Shown piece after piece: positions 2,560 through 6,575 of a stretch of 6,575 nucleotides of DNA. The notes under the pieces are model-generated. The model did no database searches. It was not told where the DNA came from and saw only the letters and a list, made by a program, of their open reading frames with translations. Source of the DNA: an uncultured Flammeovirgaceae bacterium (GTDB lineage Bacteria; Bacteroidota; Bacteroidia; Cytophagales; Cyclobacteriaceae). Position numbers and translations under genes: made by a program. How positions within the stretch are numbered: the first letter of the stretch is position 1; each line of letters starts with the position of its first letter. The stretch spans positions 1 through 6,575 of the forward strand of contig CAMLLI010000260.1 of assembly GCA_946480685.1 (NCBI GenBank), read 5' to 3'.

Positions 2560-2595
2560 AAAATAAAAAAAGAAGGCCATCACACGATGGCCTTC
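2560..2595 (-). terminator. Rho-independent terminator of the response-regulator gene
   Basis: A perfect 10-bp stem, GAAGGCCATC at 2572-2581 paired with GATGGCCTTC at 2586-2595, encloses a 4-nt loop. On the minus strand it is followed by T7-A-T4-type sequence (complement of the A-rich run 2560-2571). It lies 57 bp after the response-regulator stop codon and separates that transcript from the SusC-like gene. There is no T-run on the plus-strand side, so it acts in the minus direction. Confidence 0.88.
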
Positions 2596-2598
2596 AAA

Positions 2599-2623
2599 AT
2601 ATACCTGGATAAATAAGGTATAT
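2599..2623. repeat. 8-bp inverted repeat ATATACCT / AGGTATAT
   Basis: ATATACCT at 2599-2606 and AGGTATAT at 2616-2623 are perfect inverted copies separated by 9 nt, located between the response-regulator stop codon and its terminator. They could be a weak AT-rich RNA hairpin or a two-fold symmetric DNA-binding site. The same 8-mer recurs singly at 2421-2428 and 3383-3390. Confidence 0.5.
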
Positions 2624-2652: not shown

Positions 2653-3297
2653 TTAGATAATCGATACAAGCTTATCGTTAATAGCTTTCTTAACTACTTC
2701 TGACTTGCTTCCAACTTTCAATTTGCGATATATATTCTTAATGTGTGTTTTGGAAGTTTCCTGCGAGATCTGAAGCTGTGCTGCGATCTGGGTATAGCTC
2801 TTGCCCTCGGTTACAAGTTTCAATACTTCTGTTTCACGATCGGATAACGGAGATACCGGATTTACCCAGAAGGTCTCCAGCAACGTGCGTGTAAATACAG
2901 GACTTAGGTATGCGCCTCCGTCAAGGATCTTATCTAAAGCTGTCAAGAAATGCGACAGACCTGATTCCTGCAGTACATATCCGGTAACACCGGCTGCTAT
3001 AGTGGACAGGAACAGCTCGCGCTGACGTTCTCCGGTAACAACCAGGAATTCTGTCTGCGGACGTTTTTCACGAATAGATTTGATTGCTTCAATTCCCTCA
3101 ATGCCCGCAAAAACGAGATCCATTACAATAAGATCCGGAGATGTCTTATTGAGTTCTTTTATAGCATCCTCGCATGAGCTATACGAGTTAATGAGTGAAC
3201 AACGGCTATTTGATTCAATAGCGTAACTGAGCCCTTCACGTGTTCTGGCATCTTCTATAATCAGAATCAGCCTTGCCTTAAATCTTCCTTGTATCAT
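2653..3297 (-). CDS. NarL/LuxR-type two-component response regulator
   Basis: This 214-aa cytoplasmic transcription factor has an N-terminal receiver domain (about residues 9-125) and a C-terminal LuxR/GerE helix-turn-helix (about 148-210). In the receiver, E15 and D16 form the acidic pair, D60 in VMDL is the expected phosphoacceptor and T88 in VVTG is the switch threonine. The position of the near-invariant receiver lysine, which follows GYVL, is Gln (Q110). The DNA-binding domain shows the family pattern LSDRETEVLKLVTEGKSYTQ, then IAAQL and SKTHIKNIYRKL, the latter being the recognition-helix region. The length is typical for the family. ATG at 3297 is used; a promoter lies at 3368-3399 and a terminator at 2560-2595, so it looks monocistronic. 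It sits between a kinase gene and a SusC-like gene, but its targets are unknown. Confidence 0.95.
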   Translation of the reverse strand: MIQGRFKARLILIIEDARTREGLSYAIESNSRCSLINSYSSCEDAIKELNKTSPDLIVMDLVFAGIEGIEAIKSIREKRPQTEFLVVTGERQRELFLSTIAAGVTGYVLQESGLSHFLTALDKILDGGAYLSPVFTRTLLETFWVNPVSPLSDRETEVLKLVTEGKSYTQIAAQLQISQETSKTHIKNIYRKLKVGSKSEVVKKAINDKLVSII

Positions 3298-3590: not shown

Positions 3591-3660
3591 TAAAAAACGC
3601 ACAGAGTACGCAGAGAAAAGACCCTCTCTATAAAAACTCTGCAACCCCGTGCGTAGACTT
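3591..3660 (-). repeat. 70-bp hairpin repeat, copy 1 (terminator-like)
   Basis: This copy aligns without gaps to 3701-3770, with 61 of 70 positions identical. On the minus strand it folds as ACGCAC (3654-3649) with GTGCGT (3602-3597), an intermediate stem GGGGT/ACTCT containing G-U pairs, and an inner stem GCAGAG (3642-3637) with CTCTGC (3615-3610). The loop is 21 nt (3616-3636). The outer arm runs straight into a U-tract (complement of 3592-3597), as in an intrinsic terminator. It lies upstream of the response-regulator promoter, so it would stop read-through from the kinase transcript. The outer stem and U-tract are clear; a role beyond termination is open. Confidence 0.75.
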
Positions 3661-3672
3661 TCAATGTTTACA

Positions 3673-3689
3673 GAAGCACTGCCTGCTTC
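3673..3689. repeat. Small hairpin between the two 70-bp repeats
   Basis: GAAGCA (3673-3678) and TGCTTC (3684-3689) form a perfect 6-bp stem with a 5-nt loop in the 40-bp spacer between the repeat copies. There is no adjacent T-run, so it is not a terminator by itself. With the two flanking copies it makes three hairpins in a row. Confidence 0.45.
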
Positions 3690-3700
3690 CCTATATTTCT

Positions 3701-3770
3701 TAAAAAACGCACAGAACTCACAAAGAAAAGACCCTCTCTATAAAAACTCTGTGGCCCCGTGCGTAGACCT
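3701..3770 (-). terminator. 70-bp hairpin repeat, copy 2, at the kinase stop codon (probable terminator)
   Basis: This repeat begins, in the minus direction, immediately after the kinase TAA at 3771-3773. The stems are ACGCAC (3764-3759) with GTGCGT (3712-3707), GGGGC with GTTCT, and ACAGAG (3752-3747) with CTTTGT (3725-3720, one G-U pair). The loop 3726-3746 is identical to that of copy 1. A T-run follows the outer arm. Position, stem and U-tract make it a likely terminator for the kinase transcript. It is exactly 110 bp from copy 1, so the kinase is followed by two terminator-like structures in tandem. Confidence 0.75.
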
Positions 3771-4835
3771 TTATTCTATTTCAACTGGCTGGTATAGCTG
3801 ATTGGGGATTTGTATTCTGAAGATTGTTCCTTCGCCAACTTTAGATTGAACTTCAATCTTTCCCTTTAGCCGTTCGATTGTATCTTTTACAATGAACAAA
3901 CCTAAACCTGTTCCTTGTCCCTGATCGGTTGCCCGAAAGAACAAGTCGAATATTTTATCCAGGTAGGCTTGTGCTATACCTATGCCATTATCTTCTATTC
4001 GAATATCACAAACTTCTTCCGTGATCAATGCTGCAATTTTGATGAATGGATTTTGCTTTTGCAAGTCCATGTACTTTATAGCGTTCGAAAGAATATTTGT
4101 GACTATAGTTTGTACTCTGACCTTATCTGATAACAACTCAACATCCCCCGCTATATTCCATACTATACTAATGGACCGATCGGGGTAAACATTTTTAAGA
4201 TTCTCTACTTCTTCTGAGAGAAGTTTTTCAAGGTCTATTTTCTCGCGCTGTAGTGCCAGCTTCTCATTACGATAGAAATTATTCATTTCATCAATAAATG
4301 AGTCAAGCCGCTGCAGACTTTTCTTGATCAAACTTAGGTATTGCCCCTGCTCTTCGAAGGAGGCTTGCTCTGCTATTTTAACCAATCCGAGTGCCGACAT
4401 GAGGGGGGCTTTCATGTCGTGCGTAGTTTTATAGATAACCTGATCCAACTGTTGGTTCGAGCGGATCAGCTCCTGCTCACGTAATTTTTTCGGAGTAATA
4501 TTATATAGCTTTAATACTAATCCCTGAGGTTCGTTCTGATCAAAGAGCTTCGTGACATTCACATCAAAGTAAACCTCATGGTTGTTACCATCGGTGAATA
4601 CAAATTCGTCTGTAATATGATCTTCACTTTTTTGCAGACTGCTGGTCCATTGCAGCAATCTCTGTTGATCCACGAAGTCGAGAATACTCCGTCCAAGCAA
4701 GGAGGGTATTTCAACTCCAAGCACTTTGGTAACAGACGATGATACATACCGGATGTTAAACAACCGGTCTATTACTATAAAAATGTCCTCGGAGTTTTCA
4801 ACAAGCTCTCTGAACAGTTCTTCCCTGCATTTCAT
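3771..4835 (-). CDS. Soluble PAS-domain sensor histidine kinase
   Basis: This is a cytoplasmic ATP-dependent protein histidine kinase that would phosphorylate a response regulator. Residue numbers here count from a possible TTG start at 4844; the preferred ATG at 4835 is residue 4, giving 354 aa. A PAS sensor domain covers about 10-118 (SEDIFIVIDRLFNIRYVSSS, ending VLKLYNITPKK). A linker helix leads to the dimerisation/phosphoacceptor helix KTTHDMKAPL, with H142 as the expected phosphorylated residue. The ATPase domain has all boxes: N-box TNILSNAIKY (N250, N254), G1 DNGIGI (285-290), F-box FDLFF (299-303) and G2 GTGLGL (311-316). No signal peptide or membrane segment is visible. GGAG lies 1 nt before the ATG, too close for a standard ribosome site, so the start is uncertain by three codons. 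It follows a YfiR-like gene by 44 bp without a terminator, suggesting co-transcription. Confidence 0.93.
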   Translation of the reverse strand: MKCREELFRELVENSEDIFIVIDRLFNIRYVSSSVTKVLGVEIPSLLGRSILDFVDQQRLLQWTSSLQKSEDHITDEFVFTDGNNHEVYFDVNVTKLFDQNEPQGLVLKLYNITPKKLREQELIRSNQQLDQVIYKTTHDMKAPLMSALGLVKIAEQASFEEQGQYLSLIKKSLQRLDSFIDEMNNFYRNEKLALQREKIDLEKLLSEEVENLKNVYPDRSISIVWNIAGDVELLSDKVRVQTIVTNILSNAIKYMDLQKQNPFIKIAALITEEVCDIRIEDNGIGIAQAYLDKIFDLFFRATDQGQGTGLGLFIVKDTIERLKGKIEVQSKVGEGTIFRIQIPNQLYQPVEIE

Positions 4836-4879
4836 TCTCCACAAGCAAGTTAAAAACCTGCTCTTTTGTTCCCGAACTA

Positions 4880-5392
4880 CTAAATCAATATCGCCATGCT
4901 ACTCAGCTGGCTTGATATCTTGAGATTTGAACCATTAACTGTTGCCTGGTTTAATTCAAATTTCAATTTACCATCTACTACTTTGAAGTTTATACAACTT
5001 CCCTTCTGTCCTAAACCATTACCATCGGTTATGGTTAAGATCGACTTCCCTGCCGTTGTACTTTTAATGGTGTCGAAATCCTTGTTCTTGGATTTACCGA
5101 CATATACCACTTGGCAATCAGAAGATTCAGCAGGTGAACTCAATTTCTTGATCACATACTTTTTGCTTCCTTTTGGTTTGCCATCGTACCACTGCTTGAG
5201 CGTATTGAAGACGTTGTCATCTCCGATAACTCCAACTACAAACTCACCAGCTTCACCTTCATTTGGCCACTGCACATACTTAATAAAGTTGTACAACATA
5301 GCGGCATGAATTTCATGGGGTGGCCTTTCCTGGGCTACGCCCGTCCCGATCGTAATGAAGATCGAAAAAACTAACAGAATAGAGGTTCTCAT
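4880..5392 (-). CDS. YfiR-like (DUF4154) secreted protein, paralogue 1
   Basis: This 170-aa protein has a signal peptide (residues 1-20, ending TGVA before Q21) and is predicted to be periplasmic. The family pattern is visible: YNFIKYVQWP (34-43), GEFVVGVIGD (49-58), a conserved Cys93 in SDCQVVYVGKS, LTITDGNGL (119-127), GSCINF (131-136) and KLKFELNQ (142-149), ending with SSQLSSMAILI. In Pseudomonas, YfiR is a periplasmic inhibitor of the diguanylate cyclase YfiN; no cyclase is seen here, so only the fold is transferable. Besides Cys93 it has Cys133. It is the same length as the upstream paralogue at 5486-5998, and mature parts are roughly 60% identical by eye. The kinase gene follows after 44 bp, so the two are probably co-transcribed. 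A terminator hairpin lies 49 bp before its start, and no convincing promoter was found between. Confidence 0.9.
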   Translation of the reverse strand: MRTSILLVFSIFITIGTGVAQERPPHEIHAAMLYNFIKYVQWPNEGEAGEFVVGVIGDDNVFNTLKQWYDGKPKGSKKYVIKKLSSPAESSDCQVVYVGKSKNKDFDTIKSTTAGKSILTITDGNGLGQKGSCINFKVVDGKLKFELNQATVNGSNLKISSQLSSMAILI

Positions 5393-5485: not shown

Positions 5486-5998
5486 TTAAATCAATATCGC
5501 CATAGAGGAAAGCGAACCGGATACCTTCAGGTTAGATGCTTCGATAGCCTTCTGGTTCAATTCGAATTTAAGCTTGCTATCAACTGTTTTGAAGTTGATA
5601 CCGCTTCCTTTCTCTCCTAATCCATTCTTATCCGTAATTACCAGGGTACCTTTACCCTTTACCTTTGAATTTACTGCGTCAAACTCGCCACTCTTTGACT
5701 TGTCGATGTAAAGCACGTGGCAATCACCTACTTCAGCAGCCGAGTTGAATTTTTTAATAACATAAGTCTTAGAGCCTCTTGGCTTACCACCGTACCATTC
5801 GGTAAGTGTTTTGTAAACGTCATTGCTTCCAATCACCCCTATTACAAACTCACCACCAGTTGCCTGATCAGGCCACTGAACATAGCGGGTGAAATTGAAA
5901 ACCATCATGGAATACACTTCGTGCATGGGCCGCTCCTGCGCCTGTAGGCTCCCCGTTATGAGAAGGAGTGCTACTGCAAGGGTACTTAACTTTTTCAT
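5486..5998 (-). CDS. YfiR-like (DUF4154) secreted protein, paralogue 2
   Basis: This 170-aa predicted periplasmic protein starts with MKKLSTLAVALLLITGSLQA, a classic signal peptide with cleavage after A20 before QERP. The frame stays open upstream to 6067, but the extra residues would bury the signal peptide and the promoter's -7 element would lie inside the coding region, so ATG at 5998 is chosen. The body follows the same pattern as its neighbour: FNFTRYVQWP, GEFVIGVIGS, GDCHVLYIDKS with Cys93, LVITDKNGL, KLKFELNQ and SGSLSSMAILI. Residue 133 is Gly where the paralogue has Cys. It has its own promoter element (6030-6037) and terminator (5442-5469), so it can be expressed alone. Function by family is a periplasmic signalling or regulatory protein; the ligand and partner are unknown. 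Confidence 0.9.
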   Translation of the reverse strand: MKKLSTLAVALLLITGSLQAQERPMHEVYSMMVFNFTRYVQWPDQATGGEFVIGVIGSNDVYKTLTEWYGGKPRGSKTYVIKKFNSAAEVGDCHVLYIDKSKSGEFDAVNSKVKGKGTLVITDKNGLGEKGSGINFKTVDSKLKFELNQKAIEASNLKVSGSLSSMAILI

Positions 5999-6029
5999 AG
6001 AAACGTTGATAGGTTGTTGTTTGATGATG

Positions 6030-6037
6030 CAAAGATA
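6030..6037 (-). promoter_or_regulatory. Promoter -7 element for the YfiR-like gene at 5486-5998
   Basis: On the minus strand TATCTTTG matches the Bacteroidetes -7 consensus TAnnTTTG exactly and lies 31 bp before the ATG at 5998, implying a short leader of about 25 nt. A TTG at -33 is not seen; that position is occupied by the G/C-run of an inverted repeat (6047-6060), so the promoter may be weak or activator-dependent. Confidence 0.6.
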
Positions 6038-6046
6038 GATCAGCCC

Positions 6047-6110
6047 TAATAATTGGGGGATTCCCATAAAGGGGTTAACCTTATCGATGTAAGATTTTCC
6101 CCAATGATTA
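6047..6110. repeat. Imperfect inverted repeat spanning the peptidase stop codon and the -33 region
   Basis: TAATAATTGGGGGA (6047-6060) and TCCCCAATGATTA (6098-6110) are inverted copies with one mismatch and one extra G. A smaller hairpin, CCC (6063-6065) with GGG within 6071-6074, lies inside. The right arm includes the peptidase TAA (6108-6110); the left arm covers the -33 region of the next promoter. No T-run follows on the minus strand, so it is a poor intrinsic terminator and could equally be an operator. Confidence 0.5.
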
Positions 6111-6575
6111 CTTAATATAGCGGAAATCGTGCCCCGCCTTTAACTGAAGTAGGAACTCATATATGAGATTGATAACGTTTTCTACATCATCTTTATGAAC
6201 CATTTCAACAGTGGTATGCATATATTTAAGTGGTAATGAAATGAGTGCAGATGCTACTCCTTCAGCAGAATATGCAAAGGAATCAGTATCAGTACCTGTG
6301 GAACGAGACACGGCCTGGCGCTGGAAAGGAATCTTGCGCTTCTGAGCAGTCTCAATGATCATTTTAAGCACGTTATTCTGCACCGCGGGACCGTAGCAAA
6401 CCACCGGACCACTTCCGGCCTTCAGGTTCCCACTCTCTTTTTTATTATACATTGGTGACTGGGTATCGTGTGTTACATCGGTACAGATAGCCAGATCTGG
6501 TTTGAGCCTGCGCGAAATCATTTCGGCTCCACGTAAGCCGATCTCTTCCTGCACAGCATTTACTATATATAGTCC
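6108..6575 (-). CDS. M42-family metallo-aminopeptidase, C-terminal part (start beyond the right edge)
   Basis: This is the C-terminal 155 residues of a cytoplasmic, probably self-compartmentalising aminopeptidase with a two-metal centre that trims amino acids from peptides (M42 glutamyl/leucyl aminopeptidase family, also labelled endoglucanase M). Numbering from the window edge, AVQEEIGLRGAE carries the catalytic Glu (E10) and a metal-ligand Glu (E11). CTDVTHD supplies the metal-binding Asp (D33). GTDTDSFAYSAEGVAS (94-109) and LPLKYMHTTVEM with the ligand His (H120) complete the family signature. The first metal-ligand His and Asp are outside the window. Family proteins are about 350 aa, so a little under half is present. 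The frame is open to the last base. It ends 109 bp before the YfiR-like ATG, and that gene has its own promoter, so linkage is probably incidental. Confidence 0.93.
   Translation of the reverse strand, partial: GLYIVNAVQEEIGLRGAEMISRRLKPDLAICTDVTHDTQSPMYNKKESGNLKAGSGPVVCYGPAVQNNVLKMIIETAQKRKIPFQRQAVSRSTGTDTDSFAYSAEGVASALISLPLKYMHTTVEMVHKDDVENVINLIYEFLLQLKAGHDFRYIK

Follow-up and report, generated by a model that had tools for sequence, protein, structure and literature searches.

A hairpin RNA with a near-invariant loop at a conserved kinase locus represents an apparently undescribed family in Bacteroidota

The DNA analysed here (the window) is a stretch of 6,575 nucleotides from an uncultured Flammeovirgaceae bacterium, a relative of Ohtaekwangia within the order Cytophagales (phylum Bacteroidota). 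Read along the minus strand, it holds genes for an M42 peptidase, two YfiR/HmsC-like proteins and a PAS histidine kinase, then two copies of a hairpin RNA element, and finally a gene for a LuxR-type response regulator (Table 1). All large open frames between 2653 and 6575 lie on this strand, and thus the RNA copies are oriented along transcription. The kinase is 97% identical to its counterparts in L003 and in L001, a genome from a metagenome that bears the label Chitinophaga, 80% identical to that of Ohtaekwangia koreensis, and 61-62% identical to those of L005 and L006. At the place corresponding to the small spacer hairpin of the window, L005 carries AAGGC/GCCUU. Behind the response regulator gene (2570-2600, minus strand), there is a short GC-rich hairpin with a T run that resembles an ordinary terminator.

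Table 1. Positions of genes and RNA features in the window
Feature	Position	Strand	Basis or remark
RNA copy A: 18-pair hairpin, 22-nt loop, U6 tail, beside kinase stop codon	3701..3766	(-)	
RNA copy B: same hairpin as copy A, U6 tail	3591..3656	(-)	
Loop core GAGAGGGUC, copy A	3730..3738	(-)	Identical in 34/35 distinct copies
Loop core GAGAGGGUC, copy B	3620..3628	(-)	Identical in 34/35 distinct copies
Copy A 5' arm	3747..3764	(-)	3' arm at 3707-3725; both-side changes in 13/18 pairs, 35 copies
Copy B 5' arm	3637..3654	(-)	3' arm at 3597-3615; covariation over 35 copies
Small spacer hairpin GAAGCA/UGCUUC between the copies	3673..3689	(-)	Sequence and fold
LuxR-type response regulator	2653..3297	(-)	Pfam; downstream only here and in L001-L004
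PAS-HisKA-HATPase histidine kinase, immediately upstream of the RNA	3771..4844	(-)	Pfam; in 24/37 RNA-bearing genomes
YfiR/HmsC-like protein 1 (PF13689), codirectional	4880..5392	(-)	Pfam
YfiR/HmsC-like protein 2 (PF13689), codirectional	5486..6067	(-)	Pfam
M42 peptidase (PF05343), truncated by window end	6108..6575	(-)	Pfam; gene marks the locus in 34/37 genomes

A preliminary description of this DNA had pointed to two 70-bp copies (3591-3660 and 3701-3770) whose differences preserve one hairpin, and this was borne out by the alignment of copies. The repeats, which start 110 positions apart, differ at nine of 70 positions (3606, 3607, 3608, 3610, 3613, 3642, 3643, 3644 and 3659). Seven of the nine fall at paired positions, and every one keeps the hairpin: U-A becomes C-G at 3644/3607, G-C becomes A-U at 3642/3610, G-C becomes G-U at both 3606 and 3613, and U-G becomes C-G at 3643. 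The other two are a bulge base (3608) and a flanking base (3659), again as claimed. Both copies finish with U6, and the second repeat does start where it was said to, with the kinase stop codon (3773-3771) abutting 3701-3770. On the minus strand the two copies fold at -28.9 and -26.0 kcal/mol (z -4.97 and -4.31), and none of 200 shuffles is as good for either copy; the plus strand folds less well, at -17.1 (z -4.00) and -11.3 (z -1.88). Two copies by themselves are insufficient to rule out chance, which is ruled out by the relatives. Beyond what had been seen before, these relatives revealed a near-invariant loop, a conserved locus and, in three genomes, additional copies that have different stems.

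To define the distribution of the element, we used a covariance model (R1) built from the 11 copies of a first alignment. The genomes searched were 390 from the family, by which we mean the taxonomic group assigned to G004, in whose genome the O. koreensis locus lies. Such a search had been proposed as a check, and it found further copies: 37 genomes match at E < 1e-8, among which five or six supplied copies to the model and so match by construction, and 87 match at E up to 1. In all 37 strong genomes the element sits at one conserved locus, beside the M42, YfiR and kinase genes, which were sought with the proteins of the window and of L006; seven of the loci extend only 1.5 kb to each side. 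Each locus has one or two copies, with two in 11 of the 37 genomes, and in L001, L002, L004, L005 and L006 both copies are at the equivalent place. Beyond these, G340 is a 38th genome with the element, but its copy, located between YfiR and aroA, is diverged and has an altered core. Searches of the order (390 genomes) and the phylum (395 genomes) gave no strong match beyond genomes already in the family search, although both used fast filters by which weak members may be missed. The exact core pattern occurs in five of 236 genomes of the order, all of which are already in the family set. When required to follow a U run, the exact core occurs in 41 of 380 family genomes, against 10 matches for a reversed control. 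These comprise the 37 main-locus genomes and four others. The single matches in those four (G352, G313, G493 and G184) and one extra match in G241 were set aside as chance; four of these five (all but G184 were tested) are closed by only 1-2 bp. A plasmid search gave no match to the element.

The genes around the element are more variable than its position. An M42 gene is present at the locus in 34 of the 37 genomes. Upstream, the kinase is adjacent in 24, a YfiR gene is present without a kinase in 11, and neither is seen in two. The element is retained where the kinase is not adjacent (13/37) and where both YfiR genes are not found at the locus (2/37). The number of YfiR-like stretches itself differs, with three in G168, none in G429 and G433, and two in the window. 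On the downstream side, a gene for a Peripla_BP_2 substrate-binding protein (PF01497) is found in 29 of the 37 genomes and is absent in seven, and in one case the contig ends. Other downstream genes encode a response regulator in four genomes (G001-G004) and, on the opposite strand, aroA in three (G176, G168 and G196). In L003, a metagenome contig whose kinase is split over two frames, a single hybrid element (L003:6976-7041) joins the left half of copy A to the right half of copy B, a structure that either faulty assembly or deletion between repeats could have produced.

Evidence for selection on the fold comes from an alignment of 35 distinct copies, which include the one diverged row from G340. 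Of 629 cells at paired columns, 97.0% are paired. At least one change on both sides is seen for 13 of the 18 pairs, with 51 such cells compared to 13.3 in shuffles, and none of 500 shuffles reaches the observed value on any of the five covariation measures, all of which are exceeded. We give most weight to a control in which the partner is slid by 1-3 columns, because related sequences inflate covariation counts; this yields at most three both-side pairs and 71% pairing. Removing the G340 row leaves 12 of 18 pairs and 97.5% pairing, and RNAalifold recovers the identical stem unaided. Given this covariation and the retention of the element at one locus in 37 genomes, both the selection for the fold and the structured RNA that the preliminary description had suggested are upheld.

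Even more conserved than this covarying stem is the loop it presents, UUUUUAUAGAGAGGGUCUUUU, which is nearly invariant. Mean pairwise identity is 0.926 in the loop columns versus 0.760 in the stem, and the core GAGAGGGTC is identical in 34 of the 35 copies, with G340 as the sole exception. Already in the first alignment the loop bases are alike in all 11 copies, despite kinases that are only 61-62% identical to that of the window (L005 and L006), and elsewhere kinase identity drops to 37%. Conservation also extends to the U runs that flank the core, and ten genomes have a loop type in which the A before GAGAGGG is absent. A coding explanation for this conservation was rejected, since copies differ by single-base indels to either side of the core, so that they share no reading frame. 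We regard it as nearly certain from comparative sequence data that the element is a conserved RNA under selection.

Three genomes carry 13 extra copies with the same loop on other stems (three in G301, six in G275 and four in G232). These dispersed stems are unrelated to the main stem and partly also to each other. Closing stems are 6-12 bp in 12 of the 13 and 4 bp in one, whereas only 1.6% of random flanks give at least 6 bp. TAnnTTTG is the Bacteroidota -7 promoter consensus, and a box of this type stands shortly before 12 of the 13 copies, compared to 19% of shuffled regions; a computed terminator (a hairpin with a T run) follows 12 of the 13. Only five of the 13 have a fold energy clearly better than that of flank shuffles (no more than 5/300 as good), because several of the stems are short and A-T rich. 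No listed open frame of at least 80 residues overlaps any of these copies. Their neighbours differ from those of the main locus, in that the copies precede other genes or none, and those in L374, L379 and L382 lie between divergent genes.

At the main locus, a TAnnTTTG-like box is found before none of 29 first copies and two of 10 second copies, whereas shuffles give 12%. On the basis of this difference, we infer that the dispersed copies are free-standing small-RNA genes and that the window copies, which lack such a box, are probably derived from the kinase operon transcript at its 3' end. Many copies are followed by U tracts, and the element's own U tract may serve as the terminator in the window and its near relatives. 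In 18 loci, by contrast, a separate strong hairpin with a U-rich stretch comes close after the element (folds were judged by eye).

Contigs from viral collections contain some further candidates. A first scan of viral sequences with a fixed-length pattern found nothing, and a gapped pattern then matched 19 IMG/VR contigs. Three of these (L368, L370 and L373) form a similar hairpin, closed by 5, 6 and 5 bp and extended by further pairs; flank shuffles are as good in 2, 9 and 6 of 300 cases, respectively. The L370 contig encodes a terminase small subunit, that of L368 an SSB and a helicase, and that of L373 a primase/helicase, a serine invertase and an IS605 OrfB/TnpB-like transposase. The candidate in L358 closes with 9 bp, but 122 of 300 shuffles are as good. 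Those in L365 and L367 fold well only through pairing into the core, and the remaining matches close with 0-4 bp. By the criteria used, L368, L370, L373 and L358 have no box of 5 or more and no terminator.

Known families offer no direct counterpart to this element. The window has no Rfam 15 match at E up to 5, and the six Rfam matches among 18 relatives all fall at L119:506-597, away from the element. A search for published mention of the hairpin found none, although literature sampling was limited and this result does not imply absence. Overall, the evidence points to an apparently undescribed RNA family, and favours a regulatory role for it over a duplication by chance or a repeat that moves. 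The closest analogy we can offer is FopS of Bacteroides thetaiotaomicron, which is described as a set of multicopy sRNAs that are mostly intergenic, with one derived from a 3'UTR and one copy in a phage, that act with the binding protein RbpB and repress at start codons (PMC11697453). FopS resembles the present family in genomic habit. In both cases a group of Bacteroidota has a multicopy RNA; FopS genes have a promoter before and a terminator hairpin after them (PMC11697453), and the dispersed copies of our element have a promoter-like box and a predicted terminator in the corresponding places. The shared seed of FopS pairs near start codons, and it lies 5' and single-stranded before a terminator hairpin (PMC11697453); in the element of the window, by contrast, conservation centres on the loop that a covarying stem closes. 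Furthermore, FopS belongs to another bacterial group, and its structure is stated to have been deposited in Rfam (PMC11697453), whereas the present element has no Rfam match.

We favour, at about even confidence, a paralogous family of small RNAs that acts in trans through its loop, analogous to FopS of Bacteroides but a different RNA. In this model, a small structured RNA would be made from the minus strand, with the covarying stem presenting the loop and a U tract or a separate terminator following it. The main-locus RNA would be a 3'-end product of the kinase operon, and the dispersed copies would be genes in their own right. As for the loop, its trans action would most likely consist in base-pairing to the leaders of mRNAs in which its complement is present, as FopS does via another seed. 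A more elaborate version is a good deal more speculative: a fixed loop on an interchangeable stem, kept at one clade-wide locus and multiplied as free-standing genes in some species, might also be carried by phages that use it to enter or disturb a host regulatory circuit. The viral-collection copies, if confirmed, would add a phage link like that reported for FopS. Outside Bacteroides, the small RNAs of environmental Bacteroidota have been little explored, and a family that covariation defines, and that has a fixed locus, a precise loop and a short list of candidate targets, can be tested directly, including in the cultured hosts O. koreensis, Dawidia soli and Parachryseolinea silvisoli.

The least certain part of this model is the proposed pairing with mRNA leaders, a supported guess rather than a result, for which the genomic evidence is mixed. 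We sought the 11-base complement of the core in seven and then eight genomes with the RNA and in eight without it. Sites outside the element in the 15 genomes number 19 + 15 = 34, versus 8 + 17 = 25 for a reversed pattern, and so their number is not raised. Where the RNA is present, 14 of 31 sites extend the complement to the 13 bases AAAGACCCTCTCT; in the genomes that lack it, none of 17 sites does so (Fisher p 0.0007). This figure counts each orthologous site separately; two later sites lack the extension, which gives 14 of 33, and one last site shares its locus with another. The extension is more frequent in the first sites, where it was noticed (10/17), and weaker in the later ones (4/14). 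Ten of the 14 extended sites are intergenic, and all ten precede a gene on the same strand, with nine also standing behind one. Collapsing orthologues leaves seven loci; the intergenic share as such is not significantly raised (15/31 versus 5/17, p 0.24). About 30 bases around one extended site are identical in G001, G003 and G004. The ten genomes with the loop type that has no A before GAGAGGG contain only four extra sites, all in coding sequence, and show no matching change in the targets. L244 (in G006) and L221 (in G005) have a cluster of three GAGAGGGTCT-type sites spanning about 60 bases between two genes that lie on the other strand; every one of these sites can form a small hairpin.

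Some of these same observations would suit a loop that is instead a protein-binding site, in which case the RNA would sequester or direct a protein that binds it, and the complements in the genomes would be there by coincidence. We consider this possible, at well short of even confidence. Conservation of the whole loop, including its flanking U runs, and the exchangeability of the closing stems are what would be expected of a protein recognition element, and the ten genomes with the altered loop show no covarying targets. However, this proposal leaves both the distribution of the extended complements (14/31 versus 0/17) and their orientation unexplained.

Less probable still, and in our judgement unlikely, is an element that acts only in cis at the 3' end of the M42-YfiR-kinase operon, as a terminator or mRNA stabiliser. 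The adjoining kinase stop codon in the window, the U tracts after many copies and the lack of a promoter-like box at the main locus are all in keeping with such a role, and the hairpin with U6 in the window is like an intrinsic (Rho-independent) terminator. Unlike such terminators, however, the element has a 22-nt loop that is more conserved than its stem and that termination does not need, and a second terminator often follows it. The preliminary description had also considered use as a terminator, and the separate hairpin and U-rich stretch in 18 loci, together with a loop that changes least, make this unlikely as the sole function. Moreover, the element persists without the kinase and YfiR genes, and the 13 dispersed copies have other neighbours.

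A role as the 5' leader of the downstream substrate-binding protein gene, in the manner of an attenuator or riboswitch, is very improbable. Although 29 of 37 genomes have this gene downstream, for the most part no more than about 130 bases away, the proposal is mostly refuted by the response regulator gene that follows in G001-G004 and by the convergent aroA in G176, G168 and G196, and dispersed copies precede other genes or none.

It is even harder to credit that the element is a functionless copy of the CTCTGTG/CACAGAG palindromes dispersed among Bacteroidota. The arms are indeed similar, down to two boxes 9 bases apart, and the matches that a second model (R2) gave in the order and phylum at E values of about 3e-8 to 1e-3 are such palindromes. 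The preliminary description had mentioned intergenic repeats of this kind, and they do exist in many Bacteroidota genomes, but 39 of 40 inspected loci have no GAGAGGGTC core, and the one that has it is O. koreensis itself. A single clade-wide locus and an invariant loop that is missing from the palindromes do not fit a neutral dispersed repeat. Likewise, the suggestion of a mobile or multiplied intergenic repeat was not sustained in the six genomes first searched, each of which carries one or two copies here and none elsewhere. GTAG/CGTC-tagged palindromic repeats and other REPs (PMC3733652) are short intergenic palindromes too, but they are high-copy, whereas the element in those six genomes has one or two copies at one locus and an invariant loop. 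Finally, a recent local duplication with substitutions that agree by chance is practically negligible as an explanation: the window by itself has only two copies, but orthologues of both are present in 11 of 37 genomes and 0/500 shuffles match the covariation.

Because the arms and spacing look alike, it may nevertheless be that the RNA grew out of a CTCTGTG-type palindrome. A two-box CTCTGYG pattern is present in 11 of 13 clade genomes, mostly once and eight times in G301; in G001, G002, G004 (O. koreensis), G005 and G006 it is confined to the element. Palindromes of the CTCTGTG/CTTTGCG type are widespread in Bacteroidota genomes, as at L177, L196 (G087) and other loci among L175-L214. A minor observation concerns L029, which is titled as a Klebsiella pneumoniae MAG and has a Flavobacterium-like kinase stretch; it is probably a mislabelled bin.
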